DNA of 64,000 nt from Selenomonas sp. AB3002 (GTDB lineage: Bacteria > Bacillota > Negativicutes > Selenomonadales > Selenomonadaceae): assembly GCF_000702545.1 (NCBI RefSeq), contig NZ_JNIO01000008.1, forward strand, positions 1,240,001 to 1,304,000, written 5' to 3'. Numbering within the stretch: position 1 is the stretch's first letter; each line of letters starts with the position of its first letter. The position numbers were made by a program, and so were the translations under genes. Positions 9,678 through 48,262 of the stretch are shown here, in pieces. Below the pieces are notes generated by a model. It had not been told where the DNA came from and did no database searches. It saw only the letters and a program-made list of their open reading frames with translations.

Positions 9678-9753
9678 TGGAGCTGATGACCAGGATTGAA
9701 CTGGTGACCTTATCCTTACCAAGGATACGCTCTGCCGACTGAGCTACATCAGC
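9678..9753 (-). tRNA. tRNA-Thr (GGT anticodon)
   Basis: 76 nt including encoded CCA. The acceptor GCTGATG pairs with CATCAGC; the D-arm is GCTCAGTCGGCAGAGC; the anticodon stem TATCC/GGATA holds loop TTGGTAA (anticodon GGT); the T-loop is TTCAATC. Second in a tandem pair. Confidence 0.97.
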
Positions 9754-9795
9754 ATTCCAGCACTACCGCTTTTCTGCGACAGCCAGAATAAAAAA

Positions 9796-9871
9796 TGGAG
9801 CTGATGACCAGGATTGAACTGGTGACCTTATCCTTACCAAGGATACGCTCTGCCGACTGAGCTACATCAGC
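9796..9871 (-). tRNA. tRNA-Thr (GGT anticodon), tandem copy
   Basis: 76 nt, same sequence as the neighbouring copy. The flanking spacer (CACTACCGCTTT.CTGCGACAG) is duplicated too, indicating a recent tandem duplication of about 118 bp. Confidence 0.97.
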
Positions 9872-22149: not shown

Positions 22150-24228
22150 TCAGCTATGGTGGCAACGGGGGCATACGGTCTTAATTTTTCCATTCTGCAC
22201 AGTCATATTTACGACGTTTTTATATTGAAACAAACTGTCCCATTCAAAGAAGCTTTCACTATTAATTGTTTGCATCTCTGAAATGGTATCCTCTGAAACA
22301 TCATACCCCATATAAAGATATTCTTGCTTGCATTCTGGATTAGGACAAATCGTCTTGGTAAGTGTGAGCTGGTTACAATTATCGCAAACCGATCGATTTG
22401 CATGTATACGCATTTCCTTACCACAATTCGGGCAGGACATCTTCTCCATTTTAATAATCTGTCTGTATAACACATTCTGAAGTCGGCGGAAGGAATTGAT
22501 GTCAAACATAGTCAGCGGGAGAATCGATACTATCTGTCCATTCTCTCTAGCATACTCGGTCACTTTCTGCTCATTTTCATTGCAAATTGGAAGTGCAACT
22601 ACAATCTCAACCTCTGATTTTTCCTTGAGAATATTCCCCGCGACCGTATCCATTAAAGCCTTAAAACTCGTGCGATTCTCTGTCCCTAACTCGATTGCCA
22701 AGGGTATGATTACAAATTCCTTAACGACTGATTTAGGATATGAACGGTTGGATTCTTCCAACAGGCTTTTTAACGCTAAATATTTTCTACTTTCTTCATG
22801 ATTCTCACCACGATCCTTACTCCCTTTTGTTTTGAGGAGACTACAGAATGAATCTATTTCTTCTTCTGTTATATCATTTGCCCATATCAAATCTTGCCCA
22901 TCATATGATATACGGTGTTTATTTGTATTTGCAACATTTGGCACATCAATTCCATGCGGAACACAAACTTTTCGCGATTTAACATCTTTGAGCATCACAT
23001 CTACCAGCCCACCTTCTTTACAGGAGATGGTTAGCTCAAGATAATCATTTTTTCGAACATAATGGCCGTTGCCAAGAAGTTCAAAGTTGAGGACATGTGC
23101 GGCGTAACCACATAAGGACGCACAAAACTGCTGATAATAATCACAGGCATCTTCAAAAGTGACACGCTCCTCCACTTTATGCGTGCGTGGTGCAATCTTG
23201 TGATGGATTGTTTTCCACAGTTTGAAGACAACACTATAATGCTTATCCAGCACCAGTATATTCGTTTCGCTCAGAGGATTTGAAACATTTCTCGCTTTCT
23301 TGAGGTATCGATAAAGCCTTGTCTGCCTAAGTGCGCGGTAGCGTTTCAACAGCTTATATGCTATTCCTTGCAGCTTTTTTATCTCATCCAACCTTTTAGA
23401 ACGATATTTTTCTCCATTACTATCAGACGACATCAATTCTGATACAGCCTTTTGGAAAGTTACATCAAATCCGAAGCAGCCCGTCTGAACACTGCTGTTC
23501 ATGATTCCATTGAGCTGATCTTTCTGATCACGAAGCCGTTTCTCAGTTTTCCGAAGGAATCCGATAATAAGATCAATCAGTGTTTTTACCACACGATTCT
23601 CATAGATCTGAAATTCCTCCTCTTCTACTCTTGAAAACAGACGTGCCGGTTTTAGCCCACTTGCTGTACGAGCCAGCCAATCTTCACTATGCGCCGCCAA
23701 ATAGGGAATAGACTCGTATCCTATTCTCTTGACCGTCTCGATAGGACGCACTTCATTTACTGCTTTTAAATGAGATTTCGGTCTTTCGCAAATCAGCTTA
23801 AAAGCTTTATATGCAGTTTGTATCTGATTGAAAACATCTGTATAGGGAACGACCTCGATGCTTTGATCAACGGCATATATTTTAAGGTCTCCAGATCGTA
23901 TGCCGCTAATCTCATCTTTACTCATATTACGATATTCTTCGAAAAAATACTCATATGCTTGCGCATACTCATCTGGCATGACATGAATTGAATGACGGAT
24001 ACTATATGTATATTTCTGTCCGTTCTGTCGTACTACCAGATCAGCTTCTCCTACACACTCGATATACTTTGTATCCTGGTTTTTGATATCTCCGTCATAA
24101 AAGATTTCGCAATCAGCATCTGCCTTTTCCCTTTGCAACTCTATACGAGCCTTGCATGGCACAGTACGCAGAGTACTGTCTGGAACAATCTCCTTATGCT
24201 CCAAGGCTGAATGATAATAAACCCTCAT
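22150..24228 (-). CDS. McrC-like DUF2357 protein with C-terminal zinc ribbons
   Basis: 692 residues. DUF2357 is recognised from the RVEEEEFQIYENRVVKTLIDLI segment (about residues 203-224), characteristic of proteins paired with McrB-like ATPases. The C-terminus has CPNCGKE...CDNC (about 599), CPNPEC and a final CPRCHHS. I cannot see an unambiguous PD-(D/E)xK nuclease triad; IPLAIELGTENR near 510 is the best region to test. It starts 2 bp after the McrB-like stop and is the last gene of the operon. Expected role: effector or nuclease subunit loaded by the AAA+ partner (family knowledge plus inference). Confidence 0.75.
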   Translation of the reverse strand: MRVYYHSALEHKEIVPDSTLRTVPCKARIELQREKADADCEIFYDGDIKNQDTKYIECVGEADLVVRQNGQKYTYSIRHSIHVMPDEYAQAYEYFFEEYRNMSKDEISGIRSGDLKIYAVDQSIEVVPYTDVFNQIQTAYKAFKLICERPKSHLKAVNEVRPIETVKRIGYESIPYLAAHSEDWLARTASGLKPARLFSRVEEEEFQIYENRVVKTLIDLIIGFLRKTEKRLRDQKDQLNGIMNSSVQTGCFGFDVTFQKAVSELMSSDSNGEKYRSKRLDEIKKLQGIAYKLLKRYRALRQTRLYRYLKKARNVSNPLSETNILVLDKHYSVVFKLWKTIHHKIAPRTHKVEERVTFEDACDYYQQFCASLCGYAAHVLNFELLGNGHYVRKNDYLELTISCKEGGLVDVMLKDVKSRKVCVPHGIDVPNVANTNKHRISYDGQDLIWANDITEEEIDSFCSLLKTKGSKDRGENHEESRKYLALKSLLEESNRSYPKSVVKEFVIIPLAIELGTENRTSFKALMDTVAGNILKEKSEVEIVVALPICNENEQKVTEYARENGQIVSILPLTMFDINSFRRLQNVLYRQIIKMEKMSCPNCGKEMRIHANRSVCDNCNQLTLTKTICPNPECKQEYLYMGYDVSEDTISEMQTINSESFFEWDSLFQYKNVVNMTVQNGKIKTVCPRCHHS

Positions 24229-24230
24229 AT

Positions 24231-26654
24231 TTACATCAACTCACTTAACCGTTTTTCAAGCAATCTTGTAGTTTCTGGATAATCCTTCACTGCGTCCAGC
24301 AAGTCATATAATGCCTTGTCATCATCGCTGTTTATGACCTTCCGCAGAATCTTTGTTGAAATCTGGTAATCCAAAGCATCATTAACCTGACCGTTTGCCG
24401 CGGTGTACACTCCCACAAATTTGATTGTTTGAGTAACGATTCTGTTGCCAAATGACAGATTAAATTTTTCCATCAATACTCTATCTAGCGCTTCAAGTCG
24501 ATTTTTTACTTCCTCTATGTGTTTATTATTGTTGATTGCATCCTGAAATAGTGCCTGCAGCTTTTCAGCAGAGATAAATTTAGCACTCACCGGAGTATAA
24601 TTACCTGCCGACACGCCCTTTCTGTTAAGAGATACCACCTGCGCCCGGTCATAGACCTTGTCAGTGATCTCAAACGTAGATTCATCCCTATTTGCTGTCC
24701 CAACAAACCAAATATTATCCGTTACCTTGATTTTTCTCCCATCAATAAGATCTTTCGCACCAGTCAACTGGCCGAGCTTGCTTAAATATGCCGTAAGTAA
24801 TTCCTTATCCTCATCAGATGTTTCTGCTTTGATATCCCCCTGTCTGCTGCGCTCAATTTTTTCCCAAATTGCAAATATAGTAGGAGCTTCTCGCTGCATT
24901 TTTGCTTTTACACTATCCGGAAGTTCCATCGGAAGAGTTCTCATATCTGAAGACACAAGTTCAATTAGCCACTTTTCGTGATTTGGTTCCTGAAGTATTG
25001 CCAGGAAATCAGAAAAATAATACTCTATGCGTGCCAGATTCATTTCATCCAGAACGATAAATGTCGGTATTGGCTGACAGCGTTCCTTGCTGCTTCTGTA
25101 GAGTTCGATTGTAAAGCTCTTTGCATTGAACTTTTTATTAAAATCGTTGTAATATCCCAGAAGTTCATTTCGATCTCTCCACGAAGACTCCACCGGTATC
25201 AATCTATTGAATCCAGAAATCGCCTCAGAAAAAATGCGTGGCAAGCTAGATTTTCCAGTTCCAGACATACCCTGGAGGATAATCAAGCGACTGACAGCCA
25301 TGCCAGAAAGAAATGCCCGAATATCGTTATCTGTATAATAGAGCTGCTCTTCTTTCGAACGGCTTCCAGCAAAGTTTTTCACATGTGACACTATATCGCT
25401 CAGCCTCAAAAGCTCAGATCTTTGCATACGTTTCATGATATCAGCTTTAAAATCATCTGCTTCGATCTCCATATCAACCTTAGAAAGAGACGGGCAGGTA
25501 TCACCTGTTCGACTTTCAAGCGCAGTCTTGTGGCTTTCCAATTCCTGCAGTAAATGCTCATTCAAGGCATTAGTAGCCTCGACCTCTTGCTTAACAATTT
25601 CCAGTTCTTTAGTCGCATTTCTTGCGGCAATAACTTCTTCGCGATATCTGTTCCGCTCAAGCTCAAGTGCTTCATTCGCTCGTTCAAGCCCATCCGCCCT
25701 GCGTGCTTTTTCCTCTAGCGCGAAAATCGCTGCATCATTAGGATAACGCTCATATACTGACGCAAGGCGGTTATATTCTTCCTTTAGTTTCTGTAAGGAT
25801 GAGACAATCTCATTCATAGATGCAATCCGAGTTCCCTTTTCAGGATCATTGATTTCTGTTTTTACGATATCCATAAGAACCTGCAAATCTTCAAGTCTTT
25901 TTTGAAGATCACGATATCGCTCCTGCAGAACAGCATATTTACTTCTTTCATCTGCAAGCTCAGTTTCAAGTCGTGCAATTTTCATCGGATTTGCCGCTTC
26001 ATAACGACTTTTACGTGCCTGAAGATCCTCCTTTAGCTCATCGAGAGCCTCCTTTTCATCTTCCACAAAGCGTTTTTCTTTATCCAGTTGTCGCTGTGCC
26101 TCATGCAAAGCCGCTTCTTGTTCAGCGATTTCCTGAATTTGACGACTAAGATCATCTATCTTGGTCTGCCATGCCTTTCTAGCCTCATTCGCAGCCTCAT
26201 TCAGCTTCTTCAAACATTCTTCGTCAGCTGCTCGTTTAACATCCTCAGCATAGGTATCCGCACTAAGCCTTATAGACTCAGCCTTGTTCATGGCACTTTT
26301 TACAGTCTGCTCCGCCTCAGAATATTTCTTTTGAATAGCATCGAGTTTTTCCTGCAACTCGTCTCGTTGATCTGATAGTTCTTTTACTTTCTTTTCCAAC
26401 TGCTCCAAGGAATCCTGTGCTTTCTGAGCAGCCGCTTCTGCAACTTTTTTAGAATCCTCCCAACCACTTATATCCTCCAGCAGTTGCTGGATTAGTTGGC
26501 TCTTTTTTGCATCAAATTCTGCTTGACTGATGCTAGCTTCAACATCATCAAACGTAAACGACTTTACTTCTTCATTTGATTTCTCAATCATCACATTCTG
26601 GGCATTCCCAGGCTTCGTAGCATTGGTGTTCTTGCTCTTATTTCTCTTTGGCAT
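24231..26654 (-). CDS. McrB-like AAA+ GTPase with long N-terminal coiled coil
   Basis: 807 residues; ATG overlaps the previous stop (TAATG). Residues about 25-370 are an almost unbroken Glu/Lys/Ala/Leu coiled coil. The AAA+ module follows: Walker A GMSGTGKSS (about 464), Walker B IVLDEMNLARIEYYFSDFL (McrB-type DEMN followed by aromatic/SDFL), and sensor region WFVGTANRDESTFEITDKVYDRA, the McrB signature position. The DNA-binding domain of classical McrB is absent, replaced by the coiled coil. This matches the coiled-coil McrB subclass of type IV restriction-like systems. Confidence 0.85.
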   Translation of the reverse strand: MPKRNKSKNTNATKPGNAQNVMIEKSNEEVKSFTFDDVEASISQAEFDAKKSQLIQQLLEDISGWEDSKKVAEAAAQKAQDSLEQLEKKVKELSDQRDELQEKLDAIQKKYSEAEQTVKSAMNKAESIRLSADTYAEDVKRAADEECLKKLNEAANEARKAWQTKIDDLSRQIQEIAEQEAALHEAQRQLDKEKRFVEDEKEALDELKEDLQARKSRYEAANPMKIARLETELADERSKYAVLQERYRDLQKRLEDLQVLMDIVKTEINDPEKGTRIASMNEIVSSLQKLKEEYNRLASVYERYPNDAAIFALEEKARRADGLERANEALELERNRYREEVIAARNATKELEIVKQEVEATNALNEHLLQELESHKTALESRTGDTCPSLSKVDMEIEADDFKADIMKRMQRSELLRLSDIVSHVKNFAGSRSKEEQLYYTDNDIRAFLSGMAVSRLIILQGMSGTGKSSLPRIFSEAISGFNRLIPVESSWRDRNELLGYYNDFNKKFNAKSFTIELYRSSKERCQPIPTFIVLDEMNLARIEYYFSDFLAILQEPNHEKWLIELVSSDMRTLPMELPDSVKAKMQREAPTIFAIWEKIERSRQGDIKAETSDEDKELLTAYLSKLGQLTGAKDLIDGRKIKVTDNIWFVGTANRDESTFEITDKVYDRAQVVSLNRKGVSAGNYTPVSAKFISAEKLQALFQDAINNNKHIEEVKNRLEALDRVLMEKFNLSFGNRIVTQTIKFVGVYTAANGQVNDALDYQISTKILRKVINSDDDKALYDLLDAVKDYPETTRLLEKRLSELM

Positions 26655-28228
26655 TATTCGTCCCCCCTGAAACCATCAAGCAATCCATTCACTAGCTCGA
26701 ATACATTTTCCATGTAGAACTCATAATCTTCATTTACAAATCTATCGCCTGTGTCATGCGATACTTTTCTTCTGATACGATTTAACTTATCAATAAGAAT
26801 ATATTTACGCTGGATGTCTCTTTGAGTCAGGAATCTATGTAATTGTGCATCACTCAGATGATAATCTATGACAAGCATATTGATGAATTTTTCTACTATA
26901 CTATTGCCATAAGTCATGTTGATTCTATTCAAAATCGTGTTTAAGTATTTCCAGGTGACCCAATGCAATGTATCACCAGACAATCCAGCATTCCCGCAAA
27001 TCCTTTGTTTATATTCCTCGCATCCATAGATTTTCACATCATCCAAAGCCTTCTGCCGAATTTGCTCAAGTCGAGATTGATCTACGGAACGGAAATATAT
27101 GTTAAATAGCGCTTCAACAACACATCGCGCAAGGTTATTGACGATGTTTTCCTTTTCAAGAAGACTACTTTGTCGTTGCATCAATCCGTATATTCTCTCC
27201 ATATCCTCGTATACATACGGAAATCTGGATCGATATATGCTTAGCATCGGCATTCGTTCCAGCACAAATACACCGTAATCCTTAAGAGCGTTTGTGTATG
27301 ATGGGCTGAGCTTGCAGATCTCTCTATGCAAAAAGTCCTGCATGAGCTCATTGTCCAAATACGCCTTCTCTGACTGTTCAAGCCATTGAATCTGGCGCAG
27401 AAAATAATTGTCATCAACTCCATAAAAATCAAATGGTGACTCGGCACGATATCCCCCGGGATAACTAGGATCAATTATGATTCTCATCCTGAGATATAAG
27501 TTTTTCGGCTTCCCCCTGAGAGCTCTAATAAACATATTTTGGGGAAGTCTTCCTGCTTTGTTTTCCTGGAAATTTCTCTCTATAGCTTCATCTTCCTCTT
27601 CATCAAAGGACTCCAGATCGAAAAACAGGTCAAAAGCCTCCTCTTTAGGGATAGCACTTTCAAGATAGTCGTCAACAACTTTAAGATTACGAAAATATGC
27701 TCTATATGCCTTTTTTAGTCTCGCATGCTTTATTTCAACAGGCGCAAAGGTTTGTGCTTCACCTCCCTCCGCTGTCAGCTTCAAAGGAAGATGCCCTCCC
27801 CTGAATAAAGATATCGTCCCCACATCTCCCTGGTGAAAGTATGGCAGAATCTCCTTTTTTATTGCATTCACAAACATATAGCCATATTGCGAATCAGCTG
27901 ACGCTCGTTCCCGAATCCCCCCGTTTAAATATTCTTCTCCATTCTCTGTGAGTTCCCATGGTCTTCCTATTTCTCTATGCACATACTCCTTAGCCTCAAG
28001 ATGTGTAAGAATTTCTTCCACAAGGCTCTCGGTGGCATTCAAGGTTTTGGAAATCCCCCCTGTTGATAATCCTAACGATACCAGTTTCAAAACCGCCTCC
28101 TCATATGCATCAAGGAAATTTTCCATTGGAGGTGTGGCTTCACACTCAATTGCTAGAACCGGCAAGGCTATATCGATAGCCTGATCGTTGGCATCAAATC
28201 TTCTCATGCTCAATATATCAGCATTCAC
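26654..28228 (-). CDS. Operon protein with winged helix and HEPN-like C-terminus
   Basis: 524 residues from GTG 28228, eight bases after GGGGGAGG; an ATG at 28264 lacks an SD. It overlaps the helicase stop by 11 bp. N-terminal residues about 50-100 look like a winged helix (LGLSTGGISKTLNATESLVEEIL...KEYVHRE). The middle is unrecognised. The last 100 residues are helical and contain RRKVSH near residue 490, fitting the R-x4-H motif of HEPN ribonucleases, followed by helical FYMENVFELVNGLLDGF. If so it is a candidate RNase effector of the operon. Confidence 0.7.
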   Translation of the reverse strand: MNADILSMRRFDANDQAIDIALPVLAIECEATPPMENFLDAYEEAVLKLVSLGLSTGGISKTLNATESLVEEILTHLEAKEYVHREIGRPWELTENGEEYLNGGIRERASADSQYGYMFVNAIKKEILPYFHQGDVGTISLFRGGHLPLKLTAEGGEAQTFAPVEIKHARLKKAYRAYFRNLKVVDDYLESAIPKEEAFDLFFDLESFDEEEDEAIERNFQENKAGRLPQNMFIRALRGKPKNLYLRMRIIIDPSYPGGYRAESPFDFYGVDDNYFLRQIQWLEQSEKAYLDNELMQDFLHREICKLSPSYTNALKDYGVFVLERMPMLSIYRSRFPYVYEDMERIYGLMQRQSSLLEKENIVNNLARCVVEALFNIYFRSVDQSRLEQIRQKALDDVKIYGCEEYKQRICGNAGLSGDTLHWVTWKYLNTILNRINMTYGNSIVEKFINMLVIDYHLSDAQLHRFLTQRDIQRKYILIDKLNRIRRKVSHDTGDRFVNEDYEFYMENVFELVNGLLDGFRGDE

Positions 28229-31200
28229 GATAGCAGCCTCCCCCTTCAACTGCACAGATTTCATATAAACGAGAAAAACAAGGAATTTGTATCAGCGTTT
28301 CCGCATCTCCGTAGACTGCCAGTTGCCTGATAGAACGGCTAAAAGCTACACACAATCTGTTCGGTTTTTCCAAGAAGCCTACAACCGGTGCCTTTCCACC
28401 TCCTGGAGAATTGGAACGAACACAGGACAACAGCACATAATCAAACTCTTTTCCTTGGAAAGCGTCAACTGTACCAACTTCAATATTGGCCTTCTCATCA
28501 TCGTTCAGGAAACTGTCCAAATGTTTTTCGAGCATTTGCGCTTGTGCTAAATAGAATGTGATGATTCCAATGCTTGTTTTCTGATCCACATCCAATATGT
28601 GGCGAACATCCTTGCCAATCACCTCTATCTCTGCCCATCGACTTTTGGAAACGCCCGGAGTTTCAGCACCTCTGGATATGGGGATATTCACAAACACCAG
28701 TGCCTTCCCATGATTAATCTCAGACGAGCTTGCTCTCATCTCCGAAGTGATGTTTTTTGCTGTCTTCAATCTGCCATCATAAAAAGCGTCGCTCACAAAA
28801 TTGCAGATTTCCGGATGCATTCTGAACTGCTGTGTTAAAGGCAATGCTTTCGGTTTTTGGCCCTTTGAAAACATATCAAACAGTCTTTCAAACAGACTCT
28901 TTTCTATCTCTGGAATGTCTCTGAATCTTGGATCCGCTGTAAGCAACTTTAACACATCAGGCTCAAGCATATGAGGCAATTGTTTGTGATCGCCAACCAA
29001 CACTATTTTCTTTCCCATGGACATAGGAATGAACAGGTCTAGCGGATTAGCTCTTGCAGCCTCATCAACTATAACAAGATCATATATTTTATCAGCACGA
29101 TCTCGAAAATCCAGACTTGTCTGGCAAGTAGCTGCCGTCGTCATTGAATATTTTCTAACAATCATCTCGTAATCCTGCCCCATACGAGCCAGGAAATCAC
29201 TTAGGATCAAGGATTTCTTGCTCTCAATGCTGGAAAGAGTACTAAGATAATGGTTAGAGAAGGTATTAGCAATTTTCAATATACATTCATTGACTTTCTC
29301 TGTATCTTTGGTGTCAATGATACTTTCTTTTCTGCAAAAAATTTTGCGCAAACTTCCAATAGCCTTCACATATCGCTCAAAATCTTCGGAAGAATATGCA
29401 TCGTCGCATACCGCCTCAATCGCTTCTTTAATGACATCAGATATTCCCAGTTCATCGTTGATCCTAATATAAGCAATTAGCCGTCTAGCATTTCGCTGAC
29501 CATCATCCTTAAAACTCTCCAGCGAGGTTCTTTGAGCTTCTATCTTTCTAATAATAGGATTCTCATATTCATCACCGGGCTCTGTCGCGGCAGTAATAAT
29601 CTCTTTTGCAATCGCAATAGTTTCATTAGGATATGGTATACTCACATAGCTCAAATAGCGTTTTATCAACGCCACCGCTTTTTCTATCGGCTCTCCAGCA
29701 TTCTTATACGAAAGAAATTCATCGTCAAGCAGTCTCTTTTGAGATATAAATTCAGAGGCTGTCTTATCTTCAATCATATCCTTAATAGCTTCTTTCAACC
29801 CTGTATACCACTTATCCAAGGATTTCTGATACTGTTCTTTACTACCTTCAGATGTTCTTTTCGCTGTTTTTCGATAGGCTGGAATATCTCCCGGCAGTGG
29901 TGCAGAAATTGCATTGTCCACTGCTTCGTTCTGAAAGCTGGAGATTAGGATTTTAGGGCTTTGAAGTATATGTTCAGGATTTATTTTTTGATACTGCCTC
30001 TGCTCAGCCTCAAAAATTTCTCTGAACCTCTCTGCGATTGCCTTGATTACCGTAGTCTTTCCAGTTCCAGGAGGCCCCTGAATAAGTGCAATATCCGGGG
30101 TATTAACTGCTATGTCAAGAGCGGCTACCTGTTCCGGATTTAGTTCAGCTGCACGTTTGAAGTTCCTTCTGAGTTCTTCCGTAACCGCTTTATGGCTCCC
30201 CCAGGAATTCAACATTTCAAAACTGGAAGCGCCAGACTCTATCAAAGCTACAATAGATTTTATAGGTGACCTGTGCTTTATCATTCGTTCTCTCGCAGCA
30301 AGCCTGCGCTTCATGATATAATGTTCCCCCGCTGTATAAAGCTTCAAGACCCCCTTTTTCGGAATCAAATCCGTATCATCTTCGCCCTCAAGGAACGTAA
30401 TCACTCTACTATCTGTGACCTTTTTAATTTTACCAACACCAATCTGCTTCTTATGGCGAGCATTTTTTTCAATCTGCTCTGCGACAGTTTCCGCTTCCGA
30501 GGCTCCGACTTCCTTACCTATTAGCGAATCATCCAGCTCCTGATCGATGTTGAACTCATACGTGATACCGTTCACCTCAACCCGGAAATCATATGATGTA
30601 TACGTAATTTCTCCGAACTCCTCGCTTTCCTTTTCAAGGAGCTTTTTATTCAGCTCATCGTATGCCTCCCACCTGGCAAAGTATGACGCTGGATTGGAAA
30701 TTTTCTCCAAATCTGCTGATAATGCATCATTCACCTCAGCAATATCCGACATCGGTATAAATTTGATTTCTGGAGCAACGAAAATATCAACTGGGATATC
30801 ATATTTGTCCTTCAGGTAGGCTACGCTCTCTGCAATAATTCCTCGTGCAGTATTCTGAGCAACTAAATATCTCCTTCCGCCAATAAAACGAACATTGGCA
30901 TTCTGTCTCTTTTTGTTTTTATAGTTCAAACAGAACAGCGCTGGAATTCCCAATTGATCCCATATATAATCCTGCCGTAATTTTTCAATAGAATGCGCTT
31001 CCTGTAGTTTATTTGGCACGATAATATTTATAGGTGTTTTATACTCCGTCACAGACTGAAATATGTATGTCTGTATTACTATGCATTCATTCTCCACCAC
31101 ATGGGTCAAAAACATACAACGATAAGCATTTTCACGTTCACCTTCAAATAGATCCAAAAGATAATCTGCTATTTTAGGGCCAGCCTTGCATAGCACAGGT

Positions 31201-31364
31201 TTCTTGCTCTGCACATTTTTCCCATACTGGCTGGCAAGAAATACCAATCTCTCATGTGTCGGTTCAATTCGAATCAAGTTACCGGGCTGAAAGTCAGCAG
31301 AAGAATCTTCATAGCTAAGTTTGATCTTAAGCCCCATTGCCGAATAAATTTCAGATATCTTCAT
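28218..31364 (-). CDS. SF1 (Upf1-like) helicase
   Basis: 1048 residues; ATG overlaps the kinase stop (ATGA). The N-terminal 400 residues are unrecognised, with a barrel-like stretch at about 300-350. Motif I is GPPGTGKTT (about 430), motif II VIVDEAARANP (about 765), motif III LVGDHKQLPHML, motif IV region LTQQFRMHPEICNFV, motif V VDAFQGKEFDYVLLS, motif VI RLCVAFSRSIRQL. A long insertion (about 500-740) separates motifs I and II, as in 1B/stalk-type SF1B enzymes. No fused nuclease is seen. It probably translocates on RNA or DNA for the McrBC-like complex. Confidence 0.9.
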   Translation of the reverse strand: MKISEIYSAMGLKIKLSYEDSSADFQPGNLIRIEPTHERLVFLASQYGKNVQSKKPVLCKAGPKIADYLLDLFEGERENAYRCMFLTHVVENECIVIQTYIFQSVTEYKTPINIIVPNKLQEAHSIEKLRQDYIWDQLGIPALFCLNYKNKKRQNANVRFIGGRRYLVAQNTARGIIAESVAYLKDKYDIPVDIFVAPEIKFIPMSDIAEVNDALSADLEKISNPASYFARWEAYDELNKKLLEKESEEFGEITYTSYDFRVEVNGITYEFNIDQELDDSLIGKEVGASEAETVAEQIEKNARHKKQIGVGKIKKVTDSRVITFLEGEDDTDLIPKKGVLKLYTAGEHYIMKRRLAARERMIKHRSPIKSIVALIESGASSFEMLNSWGSHKAVTEELRRNFKRAAELNPEQVAALDIAVNTPDIALIQGPPGTGKTTVIKAIAERFREIFEAEQRQYQKINPEHILQSPKILISSFQNEAVDNAISAPLPGDIPAYRKTAKRTSEGSKEQYQKSLDKWYTGLKEAIKDMIEDKTASEFISQKRLLDDEFLSYKNAGEPIEKAVALIKRYLSYVSIPYPNETIAIAKEIITAATEPGDEYENPIIRKIEAQRTSLESFKDDGQRNARRLIAYIRINDELGISDVIKEAIEAVCDDAYSSEDFERYVKAIGSLRKIFCRKESIIDTKDTEKVNECILKIANTFSNHYLSTLSSIESKKSLILSDFLARMGQDYEMIVRKYSMTTAATCQTSLDFRDRADKIYDLVIVDEAARANPLDLFIPMSMGKKIVLVGDHKQLPHMLEPDVLKLLTADPRFRDIPEIEKSLFERLFDMFSKGQKPKALPLTQQFRMHPEICNFVSDAFYDGRLKTAKNITSEMRASSSEINHGKALVFVNIPISRGAETPGVSKSRWAEIEVIGKDVRHILDVDQKTSIGIITFYLAQAQMLEKHLDSFLNDDEKANIEVGTVDAFQGKEFDYVLLSCVRSNSPGGGKAPVVGFLEKPNRLCVAFSRSIRQLAVYGDAETLIQIPCFSRLYEICAVEGGGCYREC

Positions 31365-32839
31365 TGCACTTCCTCCAAAAACTTAGCCATACGAATAAAG
31401 GAGCACTTTTTCCCGCCAATCTTAATGGTTACATTTAACTCAAAATAGATGCAATCTCCATTTTCAATTTTGACCGCTTCATGATTGCCTAGATTAATAT
31501 ATTCATGTTCCTTACATTTTGAGATTGATGTACCTCTTGCAGTTTTTACCGCATAAGTACCAGCTCTCAGCTTTCTAATCACAACACCGCTCTTGGAAAA
31601 TTCATTATAAGCCCAATATCCGTCATCATTTTTGGCTATAGAAAGGTAATTATCCGCTACCCTTGCTGTTTGTGACGGATTATCATATCTGAGAACATAC
31701 AATCTTTTAATCTGATTTTTCCCATCTCTTAAAATATAAGAATTAACCAGTTTCCCCTGCGGACTGCCATTAATAATATTTCCGTTCCTATAATCATCGC
31801 CTTCTGTCAAAACATCGTAAAAATTCAGTCTAGCCTTAGGCTTAGATATTGAATCACACCAAGGGCACCCATCATATGCAATTCCGGTTTTTCTTGGGAA
31901 ATACCATGCTCCGCATGAAGGACATTTGATTACCTTGTTGCTAGCTTCCAACAAGGCAACTTCAAATTCTTGAGCTGAAGGACGCATCATTCTGTTAGTT
32001 TTACCGTCAACAAAGCATCGACGGAAAAGTCTCTTCAGCTTATCAGTAAACACAACATCAGCAGGTAACATATTTGTAGAATTGTCATCCGTGACATATT
32101 CGCACTTGCCAGCAAGTGCCGCTTCTTCATCCTCTGGATTTCCGTCCAGAATATTATCGCTTATATAAGGATGACCGACCCTAAGCAGTTCAAATAAAAT
32201 AACTGCAAGAGAGTAATTGTCTGATAATACATCAGGATTCCTCTGCCTGTTAATAACCTCCGGTGCAATGTAACGGGGCGTACCAAGCACAGAGGCTGCA
32301 CCTTTTCCAGCAATATAGATATTGTCTGTATCTATCATCTTTATCGATGCGGTCTTACATCCTGTTTTTACCAGAATATTGTTGCCGGAAATGTCACAAT
32401 ACGAGAGATTTACCCTTTCCAGCGCTCCGAATGCCTTCGCAATTATGTAACCTATGAAAATTCTTTCCCTAAGCCCAAGGCCTTTGTTGTACCATTCAAA
32501 AAAAGGTATTTTTTGATCCGGAATCAGATAAGAATTCAACGGCTTATGATCCACCACCTTTTCCATGACATATCCAACATATGGTTCACTCACAATATCC
32601 TCAATTGCAACGAAATTAGGCGGAACTTTAACCTCGCGGATAAAATGCAGGCGCTCCAGAATATCCTCATCTATATTTTTTGATCCAGATGGATAATAAA
32701 GCTTTATCATTTTGGCCCCAGTGCTGTCCTCATAAACAATTCCCTGAGATCCATATCCGACCATCTTCTCTAAGCGATGCTTATTTCCTTCTATAGTGAT
32801 AATCGTCTCACCAATCAGGTTTTGCATTCTTTCGCTCAT
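31361..32839 (-). CDS. Ser/Thr protein kinase with zinc ribbon (TerY-P triad kinase)
   Basis: 492 residues. N-terminal kinase domain: G-loop GYGSQGIVY, Lys in MIKLYYP, catalytic loop SYCDISGNNILV (Asp about 148, HRD replaced by YCD), DTDN in place of DFG, and YIAPEV. A CPSCGAWYF...CPWC zinc ribbon follows near residue 303, then a beta-rich C-terminal domain of about 140 residues, possibly FHA-like. It overlaps the PP2C gene by about 30 bp and the helicase start by 4 bp. Zinc-ribbon kinases of this kind pair with TerY-like VWA and PP2C proteins. Confidence 0.88.
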   Translation of the reverse strand: MSERMQNLIGETIITIEGNKHRLEKMVGYGSQGIVYEDSTGAKMIKLYYPSGSKNIDEDILERLHFIREVKVPPNFVAIEDIVSEPYVGYVMEKVVDHKPLNSYLIPDQKIPFFEWYNKGLGLRERIFIGYIIAKAFGALERVNLSYCDISGNNILVKTGCKTASIKMIDTDNIYIAGKGAASVLGTPRYIAPEVINRQRNPDVLSDNYSLAVILFELLRVGHPYISDNILDGNPEDEEAALAGKCEYVTDDNSTNMLPADVVFTDKLKRLFRRCFVDGKTNRMMRPSAQEFEVALLEASNKVIKCPSCGAWYFPRKTGIAYDGCPWCDSISKPKARLNFYDVLTEGDDYRNGNIINGSPQGKLVNSYILRDGKNQIKRLYVLRYDNPSQTARVADNYLSIAKNDDGYWAYNEFSKSGVVIRKLRAGTYAVKTARGTSISKCKEHEYINLGNHEAVKIENGDCIYFELNVTIKIGGKKCSFIRMAKFLEEVQ

Positions 32840-33551
32840 ATTTTACAACTCCTACGGTTCGGTCATCTGAGCTAAACTCTGATATATCAATCACCAGAGT
32901 CTCCAACTCTTTCTGAAGTTCATCCTCCGATGTCTCTGTTTCAATCGAAGCTACCAGTTCCAGTTCTTTGCCTTCTTGAATTCCATTTGCAACCCCATCT
33001 GTACAGGCAAATATTACATAAGGCACATACATATCCAGCCTGAACTCTGATGTCCAGAAATCATCTGCCTTAACACCTTTATTTAAACACATTGTCTGAT
33101 TTGCGAACAAATTGGTATCTATTGGAGCACAGCACTGCATCCCTCTGGATGTAACTGCAAGTATTCCATCACCAATGGAAAAAAGCACAATCTTATTTCC
33201 AAATTTCATAACAGCCTTTAAAGTAGCACAGCATTCATCAGCTTTCATGCCTCCTAACAGTCTCTTCCACTCGGCTATAATTTTTTCCGGCAGCCTGCTA
33301 CAATCATGGTCATTCTGCGCCTCTTTAACTGAATAAAATGCTAGCTTCACAGAAGTCACTGCCGCCTGAGAACCGACATCTGCCTTTGCACATGATCCGA
33401 CACCATCAGAAACAGCCATTGCAAAGTCCTCATTTTCGATTATAAACATTGCTGCGTCCTGATTTGTAACTCCATGGATTACATGACTGACTCCCGTGTC
33501 TGAAACAGTCACAAATGTATAATCTCCATGCTGCTCACTCTTGGCGATCAT
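32808..33551 (-). CDS. PP2C-family Ser/Thr phosphatase (TerY-P triad phosphatase)
   Basis: 247 residues. PP2C metal-ligand motifs are visible: NQDA near residue 28, MAVSDGVGSCAKAD (about 47), VIFACTDGVANG (about 183) and SSDDRTVGVV (about 232). Short single-domain enzyme without TM segments. ATGA overlap with the VWA gene and a longer overlap with the kinase gene imply translational coupling. Expected to reverse the kinase's phosphorylation of an operon component. Confidence 0.9.
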   Translation of the reverse strand: MIAKSEQHGDYTFVTVSDTGVSHVIHGVTNQDAAMFIIENEDFAMAVSDGVGSCAKADVGSQAAVTSVKLAFYSVKEAQNDHDCSRLPEKIIAEWKRLLGGMKADECCATLKAVMKFGNKIVLFSIGDGILAVTSRGMQCCAPIDTNLFANQTMCLNKGVKADDFWTSEFRLDMYVPYVIFACTDGVANGIQEGKELELVASIETETSEDELQKELETLVIDISEFSSDDRTVGVVKYERKNAKPDW

Positions 33552-34243
33552 ATGACAATATCCTCTGCATCAATATCAAACAGAGGAGCTACGACAGATG
33601 TTTCATTCGGATTGACACTATGCATACGAGCAACCGTTGACATTGTTACCCATCGGAAGAATTTGGCAATTCCAGAAACATCTTTCGTTCTTATTACCGG
33701 AACCTCAGGATCATCAATGAAAGCCTTAAGCATCTCAGTATCAGCATCATCTCCGATTCCTAATGCAAGGCGCTGACATTTAGCCGATCGTACTCCTGAA
33801 TGAAGATTTTTAAGCGGCTCCCAATCGAAATAATTCTTTCTGCTGTACATCTCTTCAGAACAATCTGTAGGAATACCGTCACTAATCAGAACAATTGTAG
33901 GAGTATAGGCTCTGGACGTAACAATCCCCCTATCTTCGATCATTTTCTGCACAGTTTCAAATGCCTGCCCCATTGGTGTGTTTCCACCCGCAGTAAGTTC
34001 TGATAAGGACAACCCTGTGATATCCTCCAAAGGCTGAACAAGTCTTACCTCACCGCCAAAAGTAATAATCGACAGCTGAAACTTGCCTCGTATATCATCC
34101 ACCCCATTTAATGTAGTAAGCATCTCACGCAAAGCAAGATTCAGTTCATTTATTTTTCCGCCCATCATACTTCCGGATGTATCGGCAAGTATAAAAATTG
34201 GAAGGGGTCTAGGTTCCCTTGCCACATAACTGTTAAGCCCCAT
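33548..34243 (-). CDS. TerY-like VWA-domain protein
   Basis: 231 residues; ATG 34243 follows AAAAGGAG. A complete MIDAS is present: DTSGSM (about 20), the Thr in GGNTPMGQAF (about 85), and Asp in VLISDGIPTD (about 122). First gene of the seven-gene operon. TerY-like VWA proteins form a conserved triad with a PP2C phosphatase and a kinase and are thought to act as metal-dependent protein-binding adaptors. No clear promoter is seen; the upstream DNA is a decayed Rpn nuclease gene. Confidence 0.92.
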   Translation of the reverse strand: MGLNSYVAREPRPLPIFILADTSGSMMGGKINELNLALREMLTTLNGVDDIRGKFQLSIITFGGEVRLVQPLEDITGLSLSELTAGGNTPMGQAFETVQKMIEDRGIVTSRAYTPTIVLISDGIPTDCSEEMYSRKNYFDWEPLKNLHSGVRSAKCQRLALGIGDDADTEMLKAFIDDPEVPVIRTKDVSGIAKFFRWVTMSTVARMHSVNPNETSVVAPLFDIDAEDIVI

Positions 34244-34710: not shown

Positions 34711-35520
34711 TAAATGTCGTTCTGTCATACGATAGCAGTTGATGAGATTTCTGTCTGCAGAAGTTTCCATGCATATCCAGTCTAAAATCCCGCCGAAAAC
34801 TTAACCTACAATTCCAAAACCTAGTATTCACAAGGGGTCACGGCATTTCAAGCACGATTTTAGGGCTTCGTATGGCAAGTTTTATAACGCTACCGAAAAC
34901 GCCATGAACCATTGATATTATTGAGTTCTTGGCGTAGGGTAAAAAAATCTCCAGGATTTTAGGAGCCAAATGGTGTAAACCTTCTTGATTCCACTGTAAT
35001 CCGGGCGTGTTTTATAAAAGGGCATATGGAGGTTACAGATTTTGTCCGTTCAATGCGTACATAATTGTCCAGTATAACTCTTTAACGCCTGCAATTACGC
35101 AGAAAATGTTCACTATACGTGGCAAACGGACTAAAAACAACATAAAAATCTGTTACCACAAATCAGCCCGCATTGAAACATGCCATAAATACGCCCACAA
35201 AATAGTGAAACATCATCTCTAAGCTATCTATTTCTCAAAAAAGAATGTCTCCATCCCTATGTCCACCGCTTGGGTGATTGTTAAATACATCCACAGCAAT
35301 CAACCTCAAAGCTTCCTGCCACCAACCTGCCACAAATGCCACCCCCAGAACTTCATACCCCTCCCAGGAACCCTCCGTCATACTTGAAACTTTGTGATGC
35401 GCACCTGTCTTTATCAAATATAGTAAATTTTCTTAAGATAAAATCTAGTCCCCTATGAATCGCTGGATTTGTTCAAGAAGTATCCAGTATGCCTTACCTT
35501 ACGGCAGCCAAATAAATGAT
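34711..35520. other. Gene-less AT-rich stretch
   Basis: Only short unconvincing open frames on both strands and no recognisable domain, RNA or repeat. Probably decayed mobile DNA upstream of the defence operon. Confidence 0.4.
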
Positions 35521-35548
35521 ACCCCCTAATGCGTCCACATTAGGGGGT
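35521..35548. repeat. Strong inverted repeat
   Basis: ACCCCCTAATG/CATTAGGGGGT, an 11-bp perfect stem with a 6-nt loop, upstream of the small hydrophobic ORFs. It could be a terminator, though no T-run follows. Confidence 0.5.
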
Positions 35549-35626
35549 GCGAGGTCAAGCTTTCAGTCCTCGTTAAAAAACTGACAGCTCATGTTTTCCA
35601 CCGTGCCCATGAAAGGTGGTAGGAGC

Positions 35627-35722
35627 ATGCAGGAAAGATTCCTCTGGGTGCTTGATGCAGTAGCTAAAGCCTTAGTCGCAGCAGCAATCCAAGCAATCCT
35701 GAAGTGGTATTTCGGGATTTAA
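35627..35722 (+). CDS. 31-residue hydrophobic peptide (toxin-like)
   Basis: ATG 35627 follows GGTAGGAGC. One TM-like segment (LWVLDAVAKALVAAAIQAIL) ends in KWYFGI. The leader can fold CCACC/GGTGG next to the SD. Size and character suit a type I toxin or similar membrane peptide; unproven. Confidence 0.45.
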   Translation: MQERFLWVLDAVAKALVAAAIQAILKWYFGI

Positions 35723-35771
35723 CCCAATGAACATCCTGTATGCCATGTGCTTGCAAGTAGCGCACGGCACG

Positions 35772-35811
35772 GAGAGAGGGGCAACGACACGGCACTGTCG
35801 TTCCTCTTTCC
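35772..35811. repeat. Hairpin between the two small ORFs
   Basis: GAGAGGGGCAACGACA / TGTCGTTCCTCTTTC imperfect stem with a short loop; possible 3' end of the 31-codon gene's mRNA. Confidence 0.45.
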
Positions 35812-35926
35812 TGCCAATATTATTGTTGCATGAATCTTAGATTATGTCAAGGTTCGTGCATTTTTTGATTGGCAGCATCCATGATGGGCGTCGAAAGCCC
35901 GCTGCCACACTTAGGAGGTGTTTATC

Positions 35927-36133
35927 ATGGAAAACGTTACTTTGGAAAACATTGCCGTAGTTCTTAAGTTCATTGCCTATATTGGCAGTGGACTGGGGGC
36001 AATAACCCTCGTCTCTCTTGCCGCCGCAAGGTGGTGGGAGACTGATGAGTCCCACCGCAAGGAGGTGGCGCCCTTAAAGGCGCGTGTCCTCCGCCGCCAG
36101 AGAGAGGCGGCAAGGGAAAAGACCGACAAGTGA
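35927..36133 (+). CDS. 68-residue single-TM basic-tailed protein (candidate type I toxin)
   Basis: ATG 35927 is preceded by AGGAGGTG. One TM helix (about 9-34) ends in WWE, then a strongly charged Arg/Lys/Glu tail. The 5' leader folds into a stable hairpin (GGCAGC..GGGC/GCCC GCTGCC) directly upstream of the SD. The 3' end is overlapped by a convergent small RNA gene with its own promoter and terminator. Leader structure, TM peptide and 3' antisense RNA are hallmarks of type I toxin-antitoxin loci. No known toxin family is recognised. Confidence 0.6.
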   Translation: MENVTLENIAVVLKFIAYIGSGLGAITLVSLAAARWWETDESHRKEVAPLKARVLRRQREAAREKTDK

Positions 36134-36172
36134 TTGTCGGTCGGGTGACTAAATTTCCACAAGCTTAGTCAA
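36115..36172 (-). ncRNA. Small RNA 1, antisense to the 3' end of the 68-codon gene
   Basis: About 58 nt. Two hairpins: GACTAAGCTT..TTTAGTC (36147-36170), then GACCGACAA/TTGTCGGTC (36121-36142) followed by TTTT. It overlaps the last 19 nt of the 68-codon gene. The consensus promoter at 36178-36206 drives it. Confidence 0.6.
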
Positions 36173-36177
36173 CCTCA

Positions 36178-36206
36178 ATTATATGCCGAAACACCTGGCT
36201 AGTCAA
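36178..36206 (-). promoter_or_regulatory. Promoter of small RNA 1
   Basis: -35 TTGACT (36201-36206), 17-bp spacer, -10 TATAAT (36178-36183). Confidence 0.7.
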
Positions 36207-36280
36207 GTATGGCTAGTCGGGCGTCTGCAGGATAGTGGTTCTTCCTGCACTGATGATGGCAAACCATATCATCAGGTGGT

Positions 36281-36344
36281 AAAAAGAAAAAGACCAGCAA
36301 GTAGCTTTGCTGGTCGGGTGACTAATGATTGCCCCCGTTAGTCG
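36281..36344 (-). ncRNA. Small RNA 2, paralogue of small RNA 1
   Basis: About 63 nt with the same plan: GACTAA...TTAGTC hairpin, ACCC link, GACCAGCAA/TTGCTGGTC hairpin, then TTTTTCTTTTT. On the opposite strand only a short tail resembling the end of the 68-codon gene remains (KKTSK-stop versus EKTDK-stop), so its partner gene appears lost. Confidence 0.6.
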
Positions 36345-36349
36345 CCCTT

Positions 36350-36379
36350 ATTATAAACATATTTAGAACCCCTAGTCAA
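36350..36379 (-). promoter_or_regulatory. Promoter of small RNA 2
   Basis: -35 TTGACT (36374-36379), 18-bp spacer, -10 TATAAT (36350-36355), same hexamers as small RNA 1. Confidence 0.7.
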
Positions 36380-36450
36380 CTGCTCCAGACAGAGAAGCCT
36401 GCACTACGGAAGGTTGACCCATCCCACCAGATGCGCGTCGTAAAACCTGC

Positions 36451-36546
36451 TCATTCCTTCCGCATATAAAGGCGATAGGCATAATACTCGACAGGGAGTA
36501 CACGCCCGAGGTTCACTGCCCTATGCAGAACCTGACAGCTCCGCTT
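36451..36546 (-). other. Possible gene tail, unrecognised
   Basis: A 31-codon open frame without a start ends in LPVEYYAYRLYMRKE-stop at 36451. It looks like a protein C-terminus but I cannot assign it; part of the decayed zone. Confidence 0.25.
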
Positions 36547-36613
36547 TTATTATACACCAAAGTCTCTCTATTAGTCAAATTCTAAGATAATATTATGAAC
36601 TTGCAACCATACA

Positions 36614-36976
36614 TCAGTGCCATTTCTCATCTACAAAAATCAATTTGTCATCCATGTTAACAGGATTTTCTCTCTCCCTCTTATTGGCGTAGGGAGTTTC
36701 CGGCTCAAGCACGGTTCTGCCCATGGCCAGGGGATATACTTTGGCAGCTCCAGCCTCCAATAGCAATTCTTTGCCTGCAATCAGAGAGTTGCCGGTGGTT
36801 ACGATATCATCTAGCAAGAAAATGGTCTTACCTGATATTTCAAAACGCTCATCCACAAGCATGCTCCTGAAATGAACCATCATAGACCTGTTTCCACCAG
36901 AGGATAGCTTGGCAACGTTATATCGCCTACTGAAACACTGGCTATAATCATCGCGCCTATAATACGCTGATAGCAT
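36614..36976 (-). pseudogene. Phosphoribosyltransferase C-terminal fragment
   Basis: About 120 codons containing the PRPP-binding loop IFLLDDIVTTGNSL, preceded by VHFRSMLV and ending in VDEKWH. The usual N-terminal half of a ComF-like PRTase is missing. Its 5' end overlaps the cas3 fragment in another frame, so the two pieces were joined by deletion near 36.97 kb. Confidence 0.65.
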
Positions 36977-37263
36977 TCTTGCAAGCTTGTGGACACCAGA
37001 ATCCCCGCTATCCCTTTTTTCATCACCAATTCCAATGCACCTGCAGTAGAGTGGTCTACTTTCTTGCCACCTCCTTGTAATAAATATTCTTGAAATTCCC
37101 TTGAATATTTACCCACATCATGATATAACCCCATCAGTTGCCCTACTTCTTGCTCACCAAACACCTTTGCAAATTTTTCCGCTTTCTTGCTCATTCCCCA
37201 CAAATGATCAACCATCAACTGTTCCCTGCCATCTTCTTGATTCCTATGTGCCAAGTATTTCAT
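36880..37263 (-). pseudogene. N-terminal HD fragment of Cas3 (type I-C-like)
   Basis: Starts MKYLAHRNQEDGREQ; LYHDVGKYSREFQEYL gives the HD metal motif and VDHSTAGA the next His cluster of Cas3''. Homology stops near residue 96, after which the frame reads unrelated sequence. The helicase part and all other cas genes are absent, so this is a relic of a lost CRISPR-Cas locus. Confidence 0.75.
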
Positions 37264-47984: not shown

Positions 47985-48175
47985 TCGCTCGCGGGTCAAA
48001 CGGTGATTGTCAATCAGGCAGTTCTCCTGGCTCCAGGTCATCACTTCCTTGCGCCTTCCCAGAAAGACTTTGCTCTTTCCAGTGACATCAATGCAATGAA
48101 GCTCGCTGTTACAGTGGCGGGACCGCGCCGGCTTTTACCGGCTTCTCTATTAAGTCATAGGAACTATGCTATTCC
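47985..48175 (-). promoter_or_regulatory. Cobalamin (B12) riboswitch
   Basis: The minus strand carries the conserved core GCCGGTAAAAGCCGG, GCGGTCCCGCCACTGTAA, then GGGAAGG, and the B12 box GAGCCAGGAGAACTGCCTG (near 48015-48035). A downstream terminator fits OFF-switching by adenosylcobalamin. It controls the five-gene ABC operon at 42.9-47.9 kb. Confidence 0.93.
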
Positions 48176-48262
48176 TTTCGACACCCAATCCAATCTCAAT
48201 ATAGAATTGTTTTCAATGAAAATTACAACAGGCAAAATTTTACCACTACCTACCCCAGCCTG

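Follow-up and report, generated by a model that had tools for sequence, protein, structure and literature searches.

The question raised by this locus of Selenomonas sp. AB3002 is whether two short minus-strand units beside a reading frame for a tiny membrane peptide are genuine small RNA genes and, if they are, what they control. A preliminary description had read them as a candidate type I toxin-antitoxin arrangement. The window referred to below is the whole stretch of DNA that was analysed, 64,000 nucleotides in length, and the features on which the argument turns are the following.

36178..36206, minus strand: promoter of unit 1, TTGACT-17-TATAAT, 11/12, from the sequence and a consensus scan
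36114..36173, minus strand: predicted small RNA gene of unit 1, with inferred ends
~36173-36170 to ~36117, minus strand: predicted RNA of unit 1, 54-57 nt, with inferred ends
36350..36379, minus strand: promoter of unit 2, TTGACT-18-TATAAT, 11/12, from the sequence and the consensus scan
36285..36346, minus strand: predicted small RNA gene of unit 2, paralogue of unit 1, with inferred ends
35869..35926, plus strand: leader with a GGCAGC..GCTGCC hairpin and the Shine-Dalgarno sequence AGGAGGTG, predicted mostly paired
35927..36133, plus strand: 68-codon ORF, stop included, with one hydrophobic stretch and a basic tail, a candidate toxin
36114..36133: stretch shared by the unit 1 RNA gene and the 3' end of the 68-codon ORF, 17-20 bases (17 if the RNA ends at 36117)
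36121..36176, plus strand: two inverted repeats as read on this strand, a possible end of the 68-codon message, with no clear T-run

The two units run from 36206 to 36114 (unit 1) and from 36379 to 36285 (unit 2) and share the same design. In unit 1 the promoter is followed, 7 bases on, by GACTAA-(12)-TTAGTC, then by ACCC and by a second hairpin, GACCGACAA-(4)-TTGTCGGTC, which leads into a T-run of TTTT only. In unit 2 the gap is 6 bases, GACTAA-(12)-TTAGTC and ACCC recur, and the second hairpin reads GACCAGCAA-(6)-TTGCTGGTC, followed by TTTTTCTTTTT. The first hairpin of either unit begins 6-7 bases past the end of the -10 element, and the second takes the common form of a 9-bp GACCRRCAA/TTGYYGGTC stem with a T-run after it. 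Both promoters and both minus-strand terminators were returned by the consensus scan of 35200-36700, which listed 5 promoter-like sites (1.9 expected) and 7 terminator-like sites (1.5 expected). A search of both strands of the 64-kb window for the whole design, i.e., a promoter of at least 10/12 and then two hairpins and a T-run, gave 2 matches (units 1 and 2) and 0 in 100 Markov-1 random windows, to be taken as a guide rather than a clean test as the limits were chosen with the units already known. A laxer search again returned only units 1 and 2, the random windows giving a mean of 0.02 and a maximum of 1. Two minus-strand units of one design, as had been described, are thus confirmed by the sequence, the scan and the design search.

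Units 1 and 2 align from promoter to T-run, and the likeness is lost soon 3' of the T-run. Stem 1 is identical at 12/12 bases and ACCC at 4/4, two pairs of stem 2 differ between the units and both are compensated, and the loop of hairpin 1 keeps 2/12 bases, with 10/12 changed. Covariation support is confined to stem 2 and to two sequences, stem 1 being invariant. At the DNA level the units are therefore well supported as paralogous small RNA genes, and the tandem paralogy proposed earlier gains from the alignment, the compensated pairs, the folding and the design search alike. A constant frame with an altered loop is the pattern expected of diverging pairing RNAs, which we infer here from two sequences.

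The predicted folding is stronger than that of shuffled sequence for both units, with z of -4.19 for unit 1 (0/200 shuffles as good) and -3.97 for unit 2 (1/200). The two-hairpin fold of unit 1 is best from all 5 start points tried. For unit 2, the likelier starts, 5-8 bases past the -10 element, favor another 5' hairpin, in which the G run of the loop pairs with CACCC, and the GACTAA/TTAGTC hairpin wins only with a start 3 bases past the -10, where GGG is transcribed. ACCC itself pairs, extending stem 1, once the 5' GGU/GGG is in the transcript. Hence, the ACCC link of the preliminary description is present in both units, but as a free link it holds for some start points only, because its pairing depends on where transcription starts.

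The 68-codon ORF encodes a peptide with one hydrophobic stretch (Kyte-Doolittle maximum of 1.89 over 19 residues, starting at residue 11) and a tail rich in basic charge, and its ATG is preceded by the Shine-Dalgarno sequence, which is predicted mostly paired in a leader region with a folding z of -2.60 (35815-35960). Codon scores were computed against 12 long ORFs outside the low-GC island described below and 5 inside it, with stops ignored, as a score that charges stops would favor any open frame. The ORF's own frame tops the six and is matched by 0 and 2 of 1000 base shuffles, against 615 and 85 of 1000 for a 52-codon control ORF nearby. Unit 1 is convergent with this ORF and overlaps its 3' end. 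Position, Shine-Dalgarno and codon score together support the view that unit 1 lies antisense to the 3' end of a gene for a small membrane protein that is probably translated, and on the same three grounds the overlap with a transmembrane-peptide gene claimed earlier stands.

No convincing promoter was found for the ORF, the best in the 228 bases upstream (spacers of 15-19) reaching 8/12, and a hairpin with TTTTTT, unlisted in the consensus scan, ends about 60 bases 5' of the ATG; therefore the message may arise by read-through. On the plus strand, TTATTAT follows the hairpin of unit 2 equivalent to the possible message end. Pairing with the leader was not above chance for RNA 1 (60/60 shuffles as good or better), nor was it better for RNA 2 (59/60 as good), and a split CCACA..CTTAG was the sole repeat likeness found by eye for pairing between RNA 1 and the leader.

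Unit 2 had been described as facing the remnant of such a gene. What resembles the 68-codon ORF opposite unit 2 is limited to the last codons, within the RNA gene itself and with two in-frame stops upstream, and the similarity between the units is lost a little beyond the T-run; this does not amount to evidence of a lost gene, and the remnant is not supported. Unit 2 has no facing ORF with a start codon and a transmembrane segment, and no partner for it is in sight. Further along, a third minus-strand TTGACT-18-TATAAT stands in tandem at 36578..36549, without the double hairpin after it. The start of its transcript would be complementary to a 20-base sequence with 80% likeness to 35578-35597, and its pairing with the leader of a 31-codon ORF was not clearly above shuffles (12/60 as good). 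This ORF (35627-35722, plus strand, MQERFLWV...) encodes a single hydrophobic helix, its frame is coding-like (5 and 2 of 1000 shuffles as high), and a minus-strand promoter-like site (35850-35822, 10/12) with no T-run after it faces the ORF. The two could form a further small pair.

Relatives of the RNAs were sought with a covariance model, R1, built from two sequences (units 1 and 2), in genome sets of 150, 189 and 398 that overlap one another; the peptide was searched in the sets of 150 and 398. In the window the units score 79.8 and 78.7 bits and the next best match 13.0. Among 150 relatives, own genome included, there was one other match at E<=1 (genome G116, 19.3 bits, E 0.71); among 189 family genomes, only the own genome at E<=0.1; and among 398 phylum genomes, 7 matches besides the own at E<=0.1, the best at 31.5 bits (with a one-genome E of 3.5e-4). 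All of these seven and the G116 match begin inside same-strand frames of 154-648 codons, stop to stop. In the seven, stem 1 is absent in two, reduced to three pairs in two and present with five of its six pairs in three, and a 10/12 promoter-like site lies upstream of only one of the eight (L067). They were taken as gene-end terminators or chance matches rather than relatives, the wider context having been examined for one (L062). The covariance-model search suggested in the preliminary description thus recovered units 1 and 2, but it yielded no accepted relative.

Pattern searches led to the same place. The exact pattern of hairpin 2 occurs, among the 150 relatives, in the own genome only, and the exact pattern has 0 matches in the genome contigs collection. 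In IMG/VR its single match (L031) is antisense in a stretch that looks coding and was set aside, as were 53 loci with a -10 element and hairpin 1, none of which has both hairpins in R1 at E<0.1 (best L112, 21.9 bits, hairpin 1 only); a stricter pattern gave 0 matches there. The units are unmatched in Rfam at gathering score, at which the window gives only two tRNAs and a cobalamin riboswitch. The riboswitch lies at 48000-48203 (minus strand, 102.8 bits), and tandem near-identical tRNA-Thr(ggt) genes at 9678-9871 (minus strand) form a 110-nt repeat at 97%.

For the 68-aa peptide, two weak matches in the own genome (E 0.77 and 1.1), five besides the own in the 150 genomes (E 0.016-0.084), two in the 398 (E 0.0026 and 0.0027, the latter containing 4 stops) and four in plasmids (E 4-9) were all rejected. 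No viral or genome contig match was found in a search that reaches close relatives only, and none in the phage collection by tblastn. In PHROGs the peptide met only a family of unknown function (E 0.036), and it matched no toxin family, nor anything in Pfam or NCBIfam at E<=10. Similarly, matches of the 31/37-aa ORF in 14 of 90 genomes besides the own (best E 0.069) were not accepted; it had no match in the phage collection (tblastn) and a best E of 0.18 in PHROGs. The DNA of 35500-36620 matched no plasmid, and its single match to phages, 40 bases at E 0.3, was discarded. The locus appears private to the source genome among those searched. As neither peptide nor RNA has an accepted relative, conservation cannot back the pairing. 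The phrase 'type I toxin-antitoxin', sought with names of Negativicutes, was absent among the matches listed, which says little.

The setting of the units is one of defense-type genes and gene fragments. GC is 0.40-0.45 at 22-38 kb and 0.46-0.60 elsewhere in the window, with 0.47-0.56 in the stretch containing the RNA units (35.5-36.5 kb). A low-GC defense-type island occupies 22150-34243 on the minus strand; its AAA_5-like protein is below the Pfam cut-off and is called PDC-M26A by PADLOC, and its helicase is SF1-type and MkoA-like.

22150-34243, minus strand: island genes for DUF2357, AAA_5-like, MkoB-like, helicase, kinase, PP2C phosphatase and VWA proteins
36614-36976, minus strand: phosphoribosyltransferase-domain fragment, ShosT-like by PADLOC, beside the RNA units
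36880-37263, minus strand: Cas3-HD fragment, beside the RNA units

At the equivalent place in another genome of the genus (G004), adjoining a gene which we take to be Fic, a 746-codon ORF has DNA 73.5% like the Cas3-HD fragment over 253 bases, and among the further ORFs after it one is a Csd1 match at 456 bits. With the Cas3-HD fragment here and cas genes at the same place in G004, the RNA units lie beside an apparently decayed type I-C cas locus. Csd1 was not matched at E<=0.001 in the window's genome or in three others of the genus (G001, G002, G003), and no CRISPR array was found in the window, the direct-repeat search at the settings used giving only the tRNA pair. Four same-genus stretches (L054-L057) lack a unit of this design, the best R1 match being 9.8 bits.

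What, then, would the RNAs do? The likeliest reading, to which we give slightly less than an even chance, is that these candidate cis-antisense RNAs act like type I antitoxins, with unit 2 a putative orphan. It is placed foremost because of the analogy with par/Fst and the Clostridioides difficile pairs and the precedent of the zor/orz orphan, and from layout and precedent a type I toxin-antitoxin function is plausible. The two tandem promoters would give two RNAs of one design, about 57-60 nt each. RNA 1 would be complementary to the last ~17 bases of the ORF and, if the message extends there, to the next ~40; its loops may make the first contact with the corresponding hairpins of the message, a longer duplex would grow from there, and cleavage of the message or a stop to its translation would follow, as expected of a cis-encoded, 3'-convergent type I antitoxin. 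The leader, with its Shine-Dalgarno predicted to be paired, would keep basal translation of the presumed toxin low. RNA 2, from a duplicate of the gene, may be an orphan antitoxin with its partner lost or elsewhere, and since its first loop differs at 10/12 bases it should no longer serve the target of RNA 1. Several results weigh against this reading: the lack of a convincing promoter for the ORF, the chance-level pairing with the leader, the loss of hairpin 1 of unit 2 to another fold from the likelier starts, covariation in stem 2 only, a peptide above the usual length, the lack of accepted relatives and the missing partner of unit 2.

The same anatomy would be expected if real RNAs acted on the ORF in cis by antisense and its small membrane protein were harmless, and the 68-aa length, the lack of a toxin family match and the PHROGs family of unknown function agree with it. 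The predicted-paired Shine-Dalgarno and the setting of defense-type genes and fragments suit a toxin somewhat better, though indecisively, and we consider the harmless protein unlikely. If instead the RNAs act in trans, one scaffold presenting different loops to messages encoded far away, their overlap with the ORF would be incidental. Loops that diverged while the remainder was conserved, and a unit 2 without a facing gene, speak for this; however, the complement of each loop and stem edge (16 and 17 bases, at most 2 mismatches) occurs just once elsewhere in the genome, at 2 mismatches, against 1 and 0 matches for the reversed control, a weak point as real targets can be shorter. Action in trans is accordingly judged quite improbable.

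The units might also be duplicated bidirectional terminators amid decaying fragments, with promoters that fire little and RNAs that have no function. There are gene fragments nearby, and the unit is absent from the four same-genus stretches and, by R1, from five other same-genus genomes. Yet without selection one would hardly expect two 11/12 promoters at equal spacing from the same repeats together with two compensated pairs, and this explanation appears the least probable of those weighed. The type I antitoxin reading can be carried further, to a new, lineage-private type I family in which the gene of a compact antitoxin (~57-60 nt) was copied and re-aimed through one loop, leaving an orphan antidote beside decayed CRISPR-Cas; in this full form it is rather unlikely, and the start-dependent fold of unit 2 lowers its odds slightly. 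Should the RNAs prove to be expressed and the peptide toxic, the locus would add a type I pair that lacks known relatives and has a very small antitoxin, its natural duplicate would show a change of specificity after copying, and one more such module would adjoin CRISPR-Cas remains.

Pfam and NCBIfam include an Fst model, and the 68-codon ORF, unlike Fst/par, has no match in either. The RNA 1-leader duplex, no better than shuffles, likewise sets the locus apart from Fst/par. In par_pAD1, convergent promoters, an RNA II of ~40 nt, a shared terminator and a stem-loop sequestering the Shine-Dalgarno are described, and Fst carries a PXXXG(C) motif in its hydrophobic domain (PMC7472228). As in that account of Fst-RNA II, a very short RNA here converges on a single-transmembrane peptide with a charged tail, with hairpins on both strands at the overlap and a Shine-Dalgarno predicted to be paired (PMC7472228). 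The hydrophobic stretch here contains by eye no proline, and hence no PXXXG; the peptide has 68 aa versus 33 in Fst; the minus-strand promoter and terminator are present and the ORF promoter was not found; and there are two RNA units, unlike par_pAD1. Since neither the motif of the Fst peptide nor the repeats of the leader are found here, the locus is not assigned to Fst/par. In TxpA-RatA and BsrG-SR4 the antisense RNA is convergent and 3'-overlapping with a transmembrane peptide, a layout shared by unit 1, and their antitoxins are longer than the RNAs of the units; unlike these, the 68-codon ORF has no Pfam or NCBIfam match. Both B. subtilis families are named in PMC6563280.

The convergent pairs of C. 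difficile come closer in several respects. Passages on them report that they are not homologous to other type I toxins and that several lie by CRISPR arrays (PMC6563280; PMC7699646). Like CD2517.1-RCd8, CD2907.1-RCd9 and CD0956.2-RCd10, the locus combines convergent overlap, AGGAGG, a transmembrane segment with a basic tail, no toxin homology and a CRISPR neighborhood (PMC6563280; PMC7699646). The C. difficile type I toxins described there measure 34-59 aa and are encoded next to CRISPR arrays or within prophages. The present locus has only a Cas3-HD fragment nearby, no array was found in the window at the settings used, and the peptides have no tblastn match in the phage collection. At 68 aa the peptide also exceeds the usual <60 aa given for type I toxins (PMC6563280). 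The zor/orz systems have a 29-aa toxin and an antitoxin that pairs with the toxin's 5' UTR, unlike the arrangement proposed here (PMC11264685). Tandem pairs are nevertheless known among them, and an orphan antitoxin is known and expressed; in its tandem paralogues, one of them a putative orphan, the present locus resembles zorO-orzO/zorP-orzP (PMC11264685).
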